A stretch of DNA of 37,464 nucleotides from Alphaproteobacteria bacterium (GTDB lineage: Bacteria > Pseudomonadota > Alphaproteobacteria > UBA2966). Numbering within the stretch: the stretch's first letter is position 1; every line of letters begins with the position of its first letter. A program made the translations under genes and the position numbers. The notes under the pieces were generated by a model. That model saw only the letters and a list, made by a program, of their open reading frames with translations. It ran no database searches and was not told where the DNA came from. The DNA lies in contig JASLXG010000146.1 in NCBI GenBank assembly GCA_030740435.1, forward strand, positions 1-37,464, given 5' to 3'. This document shows positions 5,436 through 30,224 of the stretch, one piece after another.

Positions 5436-7319
5436 TTAGTACGACTGCTCGAGGGCCTGGCGGTTGACGGTGACACCGAATTCGCGGCGCAGAGCCGCCT
5501 CGAACTGCTGCATGAGGTCGGCGGCGATGCCGCCGCGCAGTTGGTTCCGCAGGTTATCGAGCGCTTCCTTGTCGGCGCTGGGATCGGCCGCCTTGATCTC
5601 GACCAGCGTGGCCACGGCGTGGCCGTCGCCGTTCGTCGTCGGGGCCTCGGCCGCGCCGCCCATCGGGGCGGCAAAAAGGGCGGCCAGGAGGCCGCCCGAG
5701 ATGGCCGCCTCGGTGCCGGCCTGGTGACGGGTCAGCGCCTTGCTGCGCTTGACCTTCAGGCCGCGAGCCTGGGCCAGGGCCTGGAGGCTTTGGCCCTGTT
5801 TGAGCTGGTCGACGATTTCCTTGGCCTGGCGCGCCGTGGCCTGCTGCTGCTGACGCGCTGTCCAGTCGGCAATGAGCTGCTGGCGAACGCTCGCGAGCGG
5901 TTTGAGGGCGGGCGCCGTGACGGCGTCGACCCGGAGCACGAAATAGCCCCCCGAGGGGATCTCCACCAATTCGCTTTCGCGGCCCTGCTCGGCGGCAAAG
6001 GCGGTCTCGAGAAAAGCGGGATAGGAAGGCAGCGCCGTGACCGCGCCGCCGGCCCGGTCGCGGCCCTCGGGGTCGACGCCTTGGATGCGGCCGATCTCCA
6101 GGTTCAGGCGGTTGGCCGTCTCCTCGAGGCTGGCGCCGCTGGCCAGTTCGTCCTGCAGTTTGTTGGAAAGTTCATAGGCGTCGTCGGTGGCGGCTTGCAG
6201 GGCCAATTCCTTGCGGATCTTGTCGCGCACCGCTTCAAAGCTCTGGGTGCCGCCCGGCTCCACCTTGTTGGCGCGGAAGATGTGCCAGCCCAAGGCGCTT
6301 TCGAGGGGCGCGCTGACCTCGCCCTGGGCCACGGCAAAGGCCGCATCGGCGACCTCGGGCGGCAGGCCGTTGGCGGTGAGTACGCCGAGCTCTGTGGAAT
6401 CCGGGATCAGGCTGCCGCCGCTGGCGGCGACGACCTCGAAGGCATCGCCGCCCTTGAGCCGGTCATAGGCGGCTTGGGCCTTGGCCTTGTCGTCGAACAG
6501 CATCTGCGAAAGATCGCGCCGCTCGGGACTGGTGAACTCGCTGAGGCGCTGCTCGTAATCCTCGCGCAAACGTGATTCGGGGATCTCGATATCCCGCGAC
6601 AGCACCACCGGATCGAGCGTCAGGTAGGCGAAGCCGCGATATTCGGGGGCCGTGTAGCGGCTGGCGTTTTCCTTATGCAGCGCTTCCAGCGCAGCCTCGT
6701 CGGCCGAGGCCTCGAGCTTGGCCTTGGCGTTATCGAGCACGACGACGTCGGCGACGCGCTTTTCGGCGCGATGGCGGTAGAGCGCATCGACCAGGTTTTG
6801 CGGCGACACCGCGCCGACCTGGATGCTGGTGGACACCTGTTCGCGCACCAGATCGCGGCGCGTGATGTGTTCGAAATATTCCTTGCTGAAGCCGTTGTTG
6901 CGCAGCACGTCCTCGTAAACCGCCGGGTCGAAGCGGTCGAGGTTCTGGAAGGCCCGGTTGCCATGGATATTGCGCAGAAGCACCGAGTCGGGAACCGTCA
7001 CCCCGAAGTCCTTGGCCACCTGATCGATGAGCGCGCCGCGGACCATCTTCTGCAAGGTGAATTCAGGCAGGCCGAACTGGCGCGCCTGGTCGCTGTCGAG
7101 CTGGCTGCCGAGCTGGTTTGAGACTCGATTGACCTCGCGCCGGTAGGTCTCGTTGAAATCATTGCGCAGAATCTCGATATCGCCGACCACCGCCACCGCG
7201 GCGTCGGATGGGCCGCGGAAGATGTCACCGACGCCCCAGACGGCGAAGCTGATGACCAAGAGACCGAGCAGGCCCTTGACCAGAATGGATCCGGTGCCTC
7301 TGCGTAGTGCGTCGAGCAT
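5436..7319 (-). CDS. ppiD: PpiD-like periplasmic foldase (SurA_N / parvulin peptidyl-prolyl isomerase)
   Basis: A 627-residue protein anchored by one N-terminal helix (about 14-32, KGLLGLLVISFAVWGVGDIF) with the rest in the periplasm. The segment after the anchor (VVGDIEILRNDFNETYRR) is the SurA/PpiD N-terminal chaperone domain. A central parvulin-type PPIC domain lies about residues 250-365, with the closing signature PLESALGWHIFRANKV. The C-terminal part is a second chaperone-like region. It helps newly secreted proteins fold near the Sec translocon. The length matches the PpiD family. A promoter with a 17-bp spacer is seen upstream (7385-7413), and a tandem 11-bp repeat fills the leader. 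The gene is transcribed divergently from tpiA and leads into the EamA transporter. Confidence 0.9.
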   Translation of the reverse strand: MLDALRRGTGSILVKGLLGLLVISFAVWGVGDIFRGPSDAAVAVVGDIEILRNDFNETYRREVNRVSNQLGSQLDSDQARQFGLPEFTLQKMVRGALIDQVAKDFGVTVPDSVLLRNIHGNRAFQNLDRFDPAVYEDVLRNNGFSKEYFEHITRRDLVREQVSTSIQVGAVSPQNLVDALYRHRAEKRVADVVVLDNAKAKLEASADEAALEALHKENASRYTAPEYRGFAYLTLDPVVLSRDIEIPESRLREDYEQRLSEFTSPERRDLSQMLFDDKAKAQAAYDRLKGGDAFEVVAASGGSLIPDSTELGVLTANGLPPEVADAAFAVAQGEVSAPLESALGWHIFRANKVEPGGTQSFEAVRDKIRKELALQAATDDAYELSNKLQDELASGASLEETANRLNLEIGRIQGVDPEGRDRAGGAVTALPSYPAFLETAFAAEQGRESELVEIPSGGYFVLRVDAVTAPALKPLASVRQQLIADWTARQQQQATARQAKEIVDQLKQGQSLQALAQARGLKVKRSKALTRHQAGTEAAISGGLLAALFAAPMGGAAEAPTTNGDGHAVATLVEIKAADPSADKEALDNLRNQLRGGIAADLMQQFEAALRREFGVTVNRQALEQSY

Positions 7320-7481: not shown

Positions 7482-8228
7482 ATGGCCCCCAGAGCGCTCG
7501 TCGCCGGCAATTGGAAAATGAACGGAAGCCGCCAAAGCACCCGCGCGCTGGTGGCGGCGCTGCGTCAGGCGGCGGCCCAGCCATTTCGCGCCGAGGTGCT
7601 GATTTGCCCGCCGACGCCGCTGTTGGCGGAAGCGCGAGAGGTGCTGGGCGAGGCTGCCATCGCGCTCGGTGCCCAGGATTGCCACGCCGCGGCCAGCGGC
7701 GCCCATACCGGCGACGTGGCGGCCGAGATGCTGGCCGATCTCGGCTGTACCTACGTCATCGTTGGCCATTCGGAACGGCGCAGCGACCACGGCGAAAGCG
7801 ACGCCGAAGTGAAGGCCAAGGCCGAGGCGGCGCAGCGGGCGGGCCTTGTCGCCATCGTTTGCCTGGGCGAGACCGAGGCCGAGCGTGACGCCGGCCAGGC
7901 GCTGACCGTGGTGGGCCGCCAGTTGGCGGCTTCGTTGCCCGAGGGCGCGACGCCGGCCAACTCCGTCGTGGCCTACGAGCCGGTCTGGGCCATCGGCACC
8001 GGGCGCACGCCCAGCGAGGAGGAAATCGTCGCCGTCCACGCCGAACTGCGGGCCCGGCTGGTGGAACGTTTCGGCGCCGCCGGAAACGATTTCCGGCTGC
8101 TCTACGGCGGTTCGGTCAAGCCCTCGAACGCCGTCGCCATCATGGCGCTACCGAACGTCGACGGCGGCTTGATCGGCGGTGCCAGCCTCAAGGCCGAGGA
8201 CTTCTGGCCCATCGTCGAGGCCTGTTAA
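7482..8228 (+). CDS. tpiA: Triosephosphate isomerase
   Basis: A 248-residue cytosolic TIM-barrel enzyme that interconverts dihydroxyacetone phosphate and glyceraldehyde-3-phosphate. All the catalytic residues are in place: N10 and K12 in GNWKMN, H96 in GHSERR and E166 in [11 protein letters not shown]. The phosphate-binding YGGSVKP and the terminal GGLIGGASL are also present. Length is standard. Its stop codon TAA shares its last base with the ATG of the GST gene. In many alphaproteobacteria tpiA lies directly before secG; here the GST gene separates them. Confidence 0.97.
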
Positions 8229-8829
8229 TGCGGGTCAGGATCTACGGCGATATCCGTTCGGGCAACTGCTACAAAGTAAAGCTCGCCCTCGAGCTTCTGG
8301 GCCGGCCCTATGAATGGTGCTTCGTTGATATCCTGGAGGGCGAAAGCCGCCGCCCGGACTTTTTGGCCATGAATCCCAACGGCCGCATACCGCTGCTGGA
8401 GATCGAGCCCGGCATTTACTTGCCCGAATCAAACGCCATCCTGTGGTACCTGACCGAGGGCTCGCCCTACGTACCCGACGAGCCCCTGGCCCGGGCCCGG
8501 ACGCTGCAGTGGATGTTCTTCGAGCAGTACAGCCACGAGCCCTACATAGCTACCGTGCGCTATTGGATCCATTTGCTGGGCGAAGAGCAGAAATACAGAA
8601 CCGAGATCGAGCGCCGGCGGGGGCCGGGATATGCCGCCCTCGCGGTCATGGAAGGCGAACTTGCCGAGCGTGACTTCTTCGCCGGCACCTTCGGCATCGC
8701 CGACATCGCGCTCTATGCTTATACCCACGTCGCCCACGAGGGCGGCTTCGATCTGGCCGATTTTTTGCTGCCGTGCGGGCCTGGATCGAACGCATCGAGG
8801 CCATTCCCGGCCATGTGCCGATGGCTTGA
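8228..8829 (+). CDS. Glutathione S-transferase family protein, frameshifted at a T6 tract
   Basis: The N-terminal half is a thioredoxin-fold GST domain (SGNCYKVKLALELLG, NPNGRIPLLE, LPESNAILWYL). The C-terminal half is the helical domain (FAGTFGIADIALYAYTHVAH). In the starting frame the conserved ending is lost after LADF and the frame runs on to 8950, six bases into secG. In the -1 frame the expected GST ending follows at once: AAVRAWIERIEAIPGHVPMA, with a stop at 8827-8829. The change falls on TTTTTT at 8761-8766, which reads as the slippery heptamer T TTT TTG. I therefore give 8829 as the natural end. It may be a sequencing error, a true mutation, or slippage that yields both forms. The enzyme's substrate is unknown. 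Confidence 0.8.
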
Positions 8830-8943
8830 GGGCCGCCGCCTGGCCGCAATAGTGGGTACTAGCTTTGGGCCAAACGTCTGGTGTATAAGCGCGCAGCCTC
8901 GGCCCCGGGACAGCACCCGGCGCACAGCAGGGCATAGGACCCC

Positions 8944-9279
8944 ATGGTAGCCGTCATTCTCGTCATTCATCTGCTGCTGGCCATCTCGCTGGTCATCACG
9001 GTGCTGTTGCAGCGCAGCGAAGGCGGTGCCCTGGGCATGGGCGGGGGCGGTGGCGGCGGTTTGATGACCGGGCGCGGCGCCGCCAATCTGCTTACCCGAA
9101 CCACCGCCATCCTGGCCGCCTGCTTCATGACGACCAGTATTTTGCTGGCGATTCTGGCCGGCGGCGATCGGGGGCCGGGTTCGATCATCGACCGCGAGGC
9201 AACTTCGGGCCAACCGGCCCAGGAACAGCCGGCCGAGCCGGCCGAACCGGCCGGGCCCAAGGTGCCGATTTCCCAGTAG
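8944..9279 (+). CDS. secG: Preprotein translocase subunit SecG
   Basis: A 111-residue inner-membrane protein that assists SecYE in protein export. The first helix (about 2-20, VILVIHLLLAISLVITVLL), the conserved QRSEGGALGMGGG turn and the second helix (about 51-70) are the whole SecG signature. The tail is a Pro/Ala/Glu-rich extension common in alphaproteobacteria. The start ATG 8944 lies 114 bases after the repaired GST stop. A possible -10 TATAAG at 8884-8889 could give it its own transcript, but I see no good -35. An intrinsic terminator follows the gene. Confidence 0.93.
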   Translation: MVAVILVIHLLLAISLVITVLLQRSEGGALGMGGGGGGGLMTGRGAANLLTRTTAILAACFMTTSILLAILAGGDRGPGSIIDREATSGQPAQEQPAEPAEPAGPKVPISQ

Positions 9280-14827: not shown

Positions 14828-16240
14828 ATGGCGGTTCCCATCCTCATGCCGGCGCTCTCGCCCACCATGACCGAGGGCAATATCGCGCGCTGGCTGAAGA
14901 ACGAGGGCGATAGCGTAGCGGCCGGCGAGATCATCGCCGAGATCGAGACCGACAAGGCGACCATGGAACTGGAAGCGGCCGAGGACGGCGTGCTGGGCCG
15001 TATCGTGCTGGCCGCCGGCAGCGAGGGCGTGGCCGTCAACAGCGTCATCGCCGTGTTGCTGGAGGAGGGCGAGGGGCCCGAGGCCATCGCAGCCGCGCTC
15101 GACGCGCCGTCGCCGCTGGCCGCGCCGACGGCCTCAGAGCCTGCCCCGGAGCCAGTCCCTATGCCAGCCCCTATGCCGGCTCCTGAACCAGCCTCGCCGC
15201 CGGCTACCGCGCCCGGACCGGGGGAAATCGCCTCCGGCCCGACCGTCAGCCAGACCGTGCGCGAGGCGCTGCGCGATGCCATGGCCGAGGAAATGCGCCG
15301 CGACGACACGGTTTTTTTGCTGGGCGAGGAGGTAGCCGAATACCAGGGCGCCTACAAGGTCAGCCAGGGCCTGCTGGAGGAATTCGGCGCCCGGCGCGTC
15401 ATCGATACGCCGATCACCGAGCATGGCTTTGCCGGCATCGGCGTCGGCGCTGCCTATCAGGGACTCAGGCCGATCGTCGAGTTCATGACCTTCAATTTCG
15501 CCATGCAAGCCATCGATCACATCATCAATTCGGCGGCCAAGACGCTCTACATGTCGGGCGGCCAGATGCCGTGCCCCATCGTCTTCCGCGGCCCCAACGG
15601 GCCGGCCGCCCGGGTCGCCGCCCAGCATTCCCAGTGCTACGCCAGTTGGTACGCCCATTGCCCCGGCCTCAAGGTGGTGGCGCCCCACTCGGCGGCCGAC
15701 GCCAAGGGACTGTTGAAAGCCGCCATCCGCGATCCCAACCCGGTGATCTTTCTGGAGAACGAGATCCTTTATGGCCGCAGCTTCGAGGTCCCCGAGAACA
15801 CAGGGGAGCAGGGCGGCGACGACGGCATCATTCCGCTGGGCCTGGCGCGCATCGTGCGGCCGGGCCGCGACGTCACCATCGTCAGCTTCTCGATCTCGGT
15901 CGACCACGCCATCACGGCGGCTGAGGTGCTGGCCGGCGAGGGCATCGAGGCCGAAGTCATCGATCTGCGCACCATCAGGCCCTTGGACCTCGACACCTTG
16001 GCGGCCTCGGTGCGCAAGACCAACCGGGCCGTGACGGTGGAGGAGGGCTGGCCCACTTGCGGCGTCGGCAGCGAGCTCTCGGCGCTGCTGATGGAACACT
16101 GTTTCGACGATCTCGACGCCCCGGTGCTGCGCGTCAGCGGCGTCGACGTACCCATGCCCTACGCCGCCAACCTCGAACAACTGGCGCTGCCGCAGCCCGA
16201 GCAGGTGGTCGCGGCGGCGCGTTCCGTCTGTTATCGCTGA
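14828..16240 (+). CDS. pdhB: Pyruvate dehydrogenase E1 component, beta subunit, with N-terminal lipoyl domain
   Basis: A 470-residue subunit that completes the E1 heterotetramer. Residues 1-80 are a lipoyl domain with the modified lysine K43 (ETDKATMEL). An Ala/Pro-rich linker (about 95-135) leads to the transketolase-like E1-beta domain (about 138-470). This domain shows [52 protein letters not shown] and [11 protein letters not shown]. The extra lipoyl domain on E1-beta is a known alphaproteobacterial arrangement. Its DNA closely resembles the lipoyl domain of pdhC, which suggests duplication. It lies between pdhA and pdhC with short gaps. Confidence 0.96.
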
Positions 16241-27944: not shown

Positions 27945-30224
27945 ATGTCCTCCAGCGTTCAGCCGCCGCCAGGCTTCTTGCTCAGCCGACTCAGCCAATG
28001 GGTCCAGCGCCTGGCGCTGGGCCGCAAGCTCGCGGTTACGCTGGCGCTGGCGGCCGTGGGTTTCGCCGTCATCACCTATGTCGCCCTGACGGGCTCGCTG
28101 ACGGCGCTCGATCCCGGAGCCGGAACGGTTCGGGTGCTGCAGCTCATCGACATCGTGCTGGCGCTCAGTCTGGGGGCGCTGGTGGCGGTGCGGCTGGTGC
28201 GGCTGTGGCTGGAACGGCGCCGCGGCGGTGTCGGCTCGCGTTTGCGCACCAATCTGGTGGGGCTTTTCAGCATCGTTGCCGTCGCTCCGGCCATCGTCGT
28301 CGCCGTCTTGGCCGCCATGTTCTTCGAGCTCGGTGTGCAGACCTGGTTCGACGATCGCGTGCGCACGGCATTGCACGAATCGGTCGAGGTGGCGCGGGCT
28401 TACACCGAAGAGCACCAAAAGGGCATTTTCGGCGACGCCCTGGTGATCGCCAATGAGCTCAACCGGGCCGAAAGCCGGCTATTGCGCAACCCGGCCCGCT
28501 TCCGCCAACTGGTGGCGGCCTTGGCCGGGCTGCGCTCGCTGGCCGAGGTCGTGGTCTTCCAACGTGACGGCCGCGTACTGGCGCGGTCGCGCCTTTCCTT
28601 CACCACGCCGCTCGACATCGTGCCCGACGACGCCTATGAAAAAACCGCCAAGGGCGCCGTCGTCATGTTGCCAGGCAGCGGCGACGACCGGGTGCGGGCG
28701 CTGGTCCGCCTCGACCGCATCGCCAACGGCTATCTTTACGTCGCCCGCTACATCGACCCCCAGGTTCTGGACCACGTCTCCCGCACCAAGGGGGCGGTGG
28801 CGCTTTATGAGCGTATGGACCGCGAGCGCTGGGAAGTCACTTTCGCCTACGCCTACATCTTTTTCGTCGCCGTATTGCTGTTGCTGCTGGCGGCGGTGTG
28901 GTTTGCCCTGTCGCTGGCGACCCGCCTGATCGGCCCGGTTTCCGATCTGGTCGACGCCGCCGGCAAGGTGCGTGACGGTGACCTTACGGTGCGCGTTTCG
29001 GAGGGCCCGCAGAGCGATGAGATCTCCACCCTCAGCCGGGCCTTCAATCGCATGACCGGACAGCTTTCCGAGCAGCGTCGTGAACTGGTCGATGCCAACC
29101 AGCAGCTCGACGAGCGCCGCCGCTTCACCGAGACCGTGCTGTCGGGCGTCTCGGCCGGTGTCATCAGCCTCGATACCGAGGGCCGCATCACGCTGCCCAA
29201 CCGCTCGGCCACGCAACTGCTGGAAACCGCCGCCGCCGACCTGAACGGCCGGCTGTTTTCGCAGGCCCTGCCGGAAATGGCGGAATTGCTGGCCGAGACC
29301 CGGCGCCAGCCTAATCGCGTTGCCCAGAGCCAGATCTCGGTGGTGCGCAAGGGCAACCCCCACACCCTGCTGGTCTCGATCGCCGCCGAAGGCGCCGGAG
29401 CCGACCTCTCGGGCTTCGTGGTCACCTTCGACGACATCACCGAACTGGTCTCGGCCCAACGCACCGCCGCCTGGGCCGACATCGCACGGCGCATCGCCCA
29501 CGAGATCAAGAACCCGCTGACGCCGATCCAACTGGCGGCCGAGAGGCTGCGGCGCAAATACGGCGGCGAAGTCCAAAGCGACCCCGACATCTTCAACCAG
29601 TGCACCGAAACCATCATCCGCCAAGTCGGCGATATCGGCCGCATGATCGACGAATTCTCCTCCTTCGCCCGCATGCCGGCGCCCGCGTTCGAGACCGAGA
29701 ACCTGCCTGACCTGGCCCAGCAGGCGCTCTTTCTGCAACAAGCGGCACATCCCGAAATCAACTATCGCAGTTTCCTCGACGGCCAATCGATGAGGCTATC
29801 GTGCGACCGTCGCCAAGTCGCCCAGGCGCTCACCAATCTGCTGCAGAACTCGGCCGATTCCATCGAGGAGAGGGCGCGGCGCAACGGCACTCCGGTGGCC
29901 GGCGAGATTGAGCTTAAGCTCGAGGAAAGCGCGGGCCGCATTGCCGTCGAAGTCATCGACGACGGCATCGGGCTGCCGCTGGAGCAGCGCGGCCGGCTGA
30001 TGGAGCCCTATGTCACCACCCGCGACAAGGGTACCGGCCTGGGCCTGGCCATCGTGCGCAAGATCATGGAAGACCATGGCGGCCAGTTGGCGCTGGAGGA
30101 CCGCAGCACAGGGGGCGGGCAGGGGGCTCGGGCGCGGCTCACCTTCTACCGCGATGGCGTGGCCGAAGAACCGCCCGCCGCCACCCCCCCGCAGCCCGGC
30201 AAGGTGGCCGTCCATGGCGCATGA
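27945..30224 (+). CDS. ntrY: Membrane sensor histidine kinase NtrY
   Basis: A 759-residue sensor kinase. Three N-terminal transmembrane helices (about 28-50, 62-84, 100-128) and a fourth near 302-325 frame a periplasmic sensing region. A HAMP domain (about 326-380), a PAS domain (about 395-495) and the kinase core follow. The phospho-accepting histidine is H519 in IAHEIKNPLTPIQLAAERL. The ATPase domain shows LLQNSADSIEE, DDGIGLP and GTGLGLAIV. NtrYX is linked to nitrogen use, redox control and envelope functions in alphaproteobacteria. It lies 88 bp after ntrC with a possible own promoter, and overlaps ntrX by 11 bases. Confidence 0.95.
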   Translation: MSSSVQPPPGFLLSRLSQWVQRLALGRKLAVTLALAAVGFAVITYVALTGSLTALDPGAGTVRVLQLIDIVLALSLGALVAVRLVRLWLERRRGGVGSRLRTNLVGLFSIVAVAPAIVVAVLAAMFFELGVQTWFDDRVRTALHESVEVARAYTEEHQKGIFGDALVIANELNRAESRLLRNPARFRQLVAALAGLRSLAEVVVFQRDGRVLARSRLSFTTPLDIVPDDAYEKTAKGAVVMLPGSGDDRVRALVRLDRIANGYLYVARYIDPQVLDHVSRTKGAVALYERMDRERWEVTFAYAYIFFVAVLLLLLAAVWFALSLATRLIGPVSDLVDAAGKVRDGDLTVRVSEGPQSDEISTLSRAFNRMTGQLSEQRRELVDANQQLDERRRFTETVLSGVSAGVISLDTEGRITLPNRSATQLLETAAADLNGRLFSQALPEMAELLAETRRQPNRVAQSQISVVRKGNPHTLLVSIAAEGAGADLSGFVVTFDDITELVSAQRTAAWADIARRIAHEIKNPLTPIQLAAERLRRKYGGEVQSDPDIFNQCTETIIRQVGDIGRMIDEFSSFARMPAPAFETENLPDLAQQALFLQQAAHPEINYRSFLDGQSMRLSCDRRQVAQALTNLLQNSADSIEERARRNGTPVAGEIELKLEESAGRIAVEVIDDGIGLPLEQRGRLMEPYVTTRDKGTGLGLAIVRKIMEDHGGQLALEDRSTGGGQGARARLTFYRDGVAEEPPAATPPQPGKVAVHGA

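Follow-up and report, generated by a model that had tools for sequence, protein, structure and literature searches.

A GST gene whose conserved end stands in another frame than its beginning, with the change falling on a run of six T residues, raises the question of whether it is read through by recoding or has been broken by an insertion or deletion. Such a gene lies in the stretch of DNA analysed here (the window), 37,464 nucleotides that form contig G000:C146 of a draft genome of 236 contigs; the species is represented by this one genome. A preliminary description had listed sequencing error, genuine mutation and programmed or transcriptional slippage as possible causes, choosing none. Our comparisons make it very probable that a private frame-changing indel near the 3′ end of the gene, real or artefactual in origin, explains the break, with no programmed frameshift. 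The first two of the listed causes accordingly stand, and slippage is not supported.

The GST gene and its frame break

The gene order is tpiA, GST, secG (Table 1), and the GST start codon (8228) and the tpiA stop codon have one base in common. The starting frame, 8228–8950, encodes 240 amino acids and overlaps the start of secG (8944) by 7 bases; the preliminary description was thus right that the unshifted product carries an unrelated tail reaching into secG. Over 8228–8767 three GST_N models exceed their Pfam cut-offs (GST_N_2, 3.3e-14; GST_N, 9.9e-13; GST_N_3, 6.2e-12), showing that a GST_N domain is present. GST_C_2 (5.8e-5) stays below its cut-off of 24.9 bits, with 23.5 bits over 8228–8767 and 23.0 bits over 8228–8947; in the copy of a same-genus genome, GST_C and GST_C_2 are both above cut-off. 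None of the named GST classes maiA, PRK11752, PRK13972, GstA and FzlA is reached at the NCBIfam equivalog cut-off: the best score of the window gene, for maiA, is 58.4 bits against a cut-off of 171.05, and the same-genus copy also falls short at 62.9 bits. The best solved relative by sequence is 3m3m, deposited as Glutathione S-transferase (E = 1.1e-59, residues 4–178); compared with it, the unshifted product of the window lacks the end that follows residue 178.

Table 1 Features of the GST locus (window coordinates)
Feature	Coordinates	Strand	Evidence
tpiA (triosephosphate isomerase)	7482–8228	+	Upstream neighbour of the GST gene; Pfam TIM, 4.7e-89
GST gene up to the break, comprising the thioredoxin-like N-domain and the greater part of the helical C-domain	8228–8764	+	Pfam matches; 147/174 residues match those of the same-genus copy
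T6 tract, where the frame-changing indel lies	8761–8769	+	Net two extra bases relative to the same-genus gene (alignments)
Conserved C terminus of GST, read in the other frame and closed by TGA at 8827–8829	8767–8829	+	14/19 residues match the same-genus protein
Tail in the unshifted frame, some 60 unrelated residues, extending into the secG start	8768–8950	+	Frame open to a stop ending at 8950
Small stem GGCCT/AGGCC	8778–8802	+	Not beyond chance; z −0.23 (40-nt piece)
secG	8944–9279	+	Downstream neighbour of the GST gene; Pfam SecG, 3.3e-18

Similarity to the GST family ends at codons 178–180, GAT (8759–8761), TTT (8762–8764) and TTG (8765–8767). The T6 tract occupies 8761–8766 and is followed by a G at 8767, placing the heptamer T_TTT_TTG (8761–8767) in slippery register. 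In the other frame, 8767 onwards encodes AAVRAWIERIEAIPGHVPMA up to the stop; its residues AVRAWIERIEAIPGHVPMA, followed by TGA, agree at 14 of 19 positions with AIRSWIQRIEAIPGYVPLA, with which the same-genus protein ends. The loss of the GST frame at T6 with the conserved end in the other frame, the position and register of the heptamer, and the potential stem (GGCCT, 8778–8782; AGGCC, 8798–8802) are all as the preliminary description had them. Of these, the frame break is beyond chance; the heptamer and the stem are not.

Comparison with the same-genus genome and other relatives

The same-genus genome (G001) carries an intact GST gene, 84% identical in amino acids, adjoined by tpiA, secG and pyrG. 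Alignments at the T tract give the window two more bases than G001. The 174 codons that precede the break give pS 0.48 and pN 0.07, a ratio that indicates purifying selection and therefore use of the GST gene through most of the period after the two species diverged. The 19 codons after the break hold 3.5 synonymous and 5.5 non-synonymous differences (pN/pS 0.13/0.24), too few sites to judge.

Window positions 5449–37464 align with a single G001 contig (C90) at 84%, and we compared 30 syntenic gene pairs (28 together with hfq and a CPBP/Rce1-like protease gene; the last pair is cut by the window's end). These cover the window to the right of about 5436, the left part being without same-genus contig coverage. 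Only the GST pair has an internal frame-changing gap: the pair at 27945–30224 is in frame when aligned from its proper start, and hfq and the protease gene have gaps of only 6 and 3 bases, respectively. Eight other homopolymers of 6–7 bases in syntenic genes show no frame change. General assembly trouble in the contig was rejected as an explanation, none of the other 29 syntenic pairs having a frame-changing indel.

The wider comparison used 91 relatives, comprising the 11 best loci (L003–L013) from a set of genomes, in which 50 of 61 contain some match (the window's own included), and, from named genome records, the best 80 of at least 577 stretches encoding a relative; 18 weaker loci (L014–L031) were left out. 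All 91 were aligned, and the eight codons around the break were scanned for T-runs and heptamers. Every one of these relatives (the 11 and the best 80 of at least 577) stays in a single frame up to its stop, which falls at 197–218 residues in query numbering. The 12-residue block around the break is gap-free in all 91 rows; L and W are present in each, Y or F stands in 89 rows and P in 81. At the site itself the longest T-run is 1 to 4 bases, and a run of five or more, or a broken frame, occurs in none of the 91. The preliminary description had proposed such a comparison of tract length among orthologues, taking relatives with a single normal frame to mean an error or a private mutation and not slippage; it is against slippage that the comparison comes out. 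Another in-register slippery-type heptamer is present in 7 of the 91 rows (TTTCCCG in four), all in unbroken genes, and such a motif alone therefore means little. The GST gene stands beside tpiA and secG in only one of the 91 loci, that of G001, although flanks were short and sometimes cut. A close second copy in the genome was also considered and dropped: among the gene's 12 matches there (itself included), the next is 35% identical.

The ends of the relatives bear equally on the tail of the unshifted product. This tail is open for about 60 codons, as would be expected of a functional replacement C terminus kept by selection. It spans, however, the stretch between GST and secG, including a promoter-like block that is conserved with the same-genus genome and is non-coding for GST there, and such a tail is found in none of the 91 relatives; selection for it is extremely unlikely. 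The block (41 bases before secG, 8865–8905, from TTGGGCC to CGGCCC) differs from the same-genus genome at one base, its surroundings differing more. Being better conserved than what surrounds it, the block may contain a signal, either the secG promoter or some other.

Recoding at the T tract

Programmed −1 ribosomal frameshifting at T_TTT_TTG, aided by the stem, would make the conserved GST end, and the heptamer is in the register that it calls for. By the rules of a survey of all heptamers in E. coli (PMC4066793), GGCGG at 8741–8745 lies at the edge of the distance for a stimulatory Shine–Dalgarno sequence, and the stem (−12.9 kcal/mol for a 40-nt piece) begins at the eleventh base after the motif, just past the 4–10-nt rule. 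The same survey found 61% of heptamers shift-prone above background when no stimulator was present and 95% when a strong pseudoknot was, which makes some leakage plausible. Since most heptamers shift somewhat, and GGCGG and the stem sit at the limits of distance, some capacity to shift has to be granted.

Programmed frameshifting here is nevertheless very unlikely. The site is absent from all 91 relatives, the same-genus one included, and with two extra bases relative to that gene a −1 slip would add one residue, found in none of them. GGCGG encodes a conserved Gly-Gly, and the same-genus gene has GGTGG at that place. The pseudoknot-free structure downstream is no better than that of dinucleotide shuffles (z 0.08, −0.49 and −0.23 for 80, 50 and 40 nt). 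TTTTTTG occurs at chance frequency in the window (2 on both strands against 1.63 expected from shuffles), and the 30 genes contain 26 in-register X_XXY_YYZ heptamers in 10,483 codons, overlapping genes being counted twice. As far as the material drawn on from the E. coli survey goes, the motifs efficient in bacteria include H_HH.U_UU.Y, and U_UU.U_UU.G figures with the most efficient ones for eukaryotes only (PMC4066793). T_TTT_TTG is also in register at 15313–15319, in a gene that is unshifted. Programmed frameshifting was rejected on these grounds of conservation, spacing, structure and the second, unshifted heptamer. That second heptamer arises from a T7 run at 15312–15319 and offers a usable internal control; its gene has a lipoyl domain at the start and transketolase domains, by which it is assigned as a pyruvate dehydrogenase E1 beta type subunit.

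A weaker form of recoding would be unprogrammed, with transcriptional slippage on T6 or low-level ribosome leakage partly rescuing a recent real indel. The tract does lie at the break itself, and the GST end has kept its conservation in the old frame. The run is only six long, however, in a contig of 66% GC, as against about 8–9 or more for slippage-prone A/T runs (PMC1088944), and the T6 and T7 runs in two other window genes, in frame with their same-genus counterparts, give no hint of use. In the part of that study drawn on here, a large share of bacterial genomes shows evident selection against such runs once they reach about nine bases, and a run of eight is suggested for some IS elements (PMC1088944). 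Transcriptional slippage was rejected because the run is too short, and rescue of either kind is very unlikely. For this the indel would have to be fixed in the species and T6-dependent slippage to give a little full-length GST. To a rescue of that kind, young and private to this broken gene, we give very little probability; if real, it would reveal such a system just as it arises.

Origin of the frame break

In our preferred explanation, a private indel would have hit a short T tract in a GST gene that is an ordinary chromosomal one, some 20 codons ahead of the normal stop. About 60 out-of-frame residues would then be translated, up to a stop just inside secG, and the encoded protein would be without its conserved last 20 or so residues; recoding would be unnecessary to account for the break. 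Counted against this explanation is the conservation of the post-break stretch in the old frame (14 of 19 residues), which slippage rescue would give as well. With one genome representing the species, the indel may also be fixed there and hence conceivably in use.

As to how the indel arose, the compared remainder of the contig is clean, and homopolymer errors of two bases are not the most usual kind. About half the weight may be given to a recent real mutation, and an assembly or sequencing error appears nearly as likely, so that we favour the real mutation very slightly. According to the portions of the GeneTack survey used here (PMC3711429), a frameshift in one genome only points to a recent indel or a sequencing error; where a single genome has the shift and proteins support both sides of it, a sequencing error is expected in preference to a real indel, and shifts near the 3′ end are expected to be real indels more often than those elsewhere.

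The case carries little weight beyond offering a clean instance of a homopolymer frame break that can pass for recoding, and a warning to those who call genes in a draft genome. Among bacterial genes, dnaX is one with a −1 programmed frameshift. With dnaX, and with IS3 and IS911 as described in PMC4066793, the GST site shares an X_XXY_YYZ motif in register and a small stem after it; unlike them, it is unconserved, its stem is at chance level, a slip would leave one extra residue, and, in what we draw from that survey, its motif does not appear with those given as most efficient for E. coli. The closer likeness in kind is to the singleton frameshifted genes of GeneTack, as far as they are described in the portions used (PMC3711429): as in those, the break is in one genome only and near the 3′ end, similarity persists on both sides and the relatives are intact. 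The difference is that here the indel lies inside a slippery-looking T6, which invites a reading as recoding.
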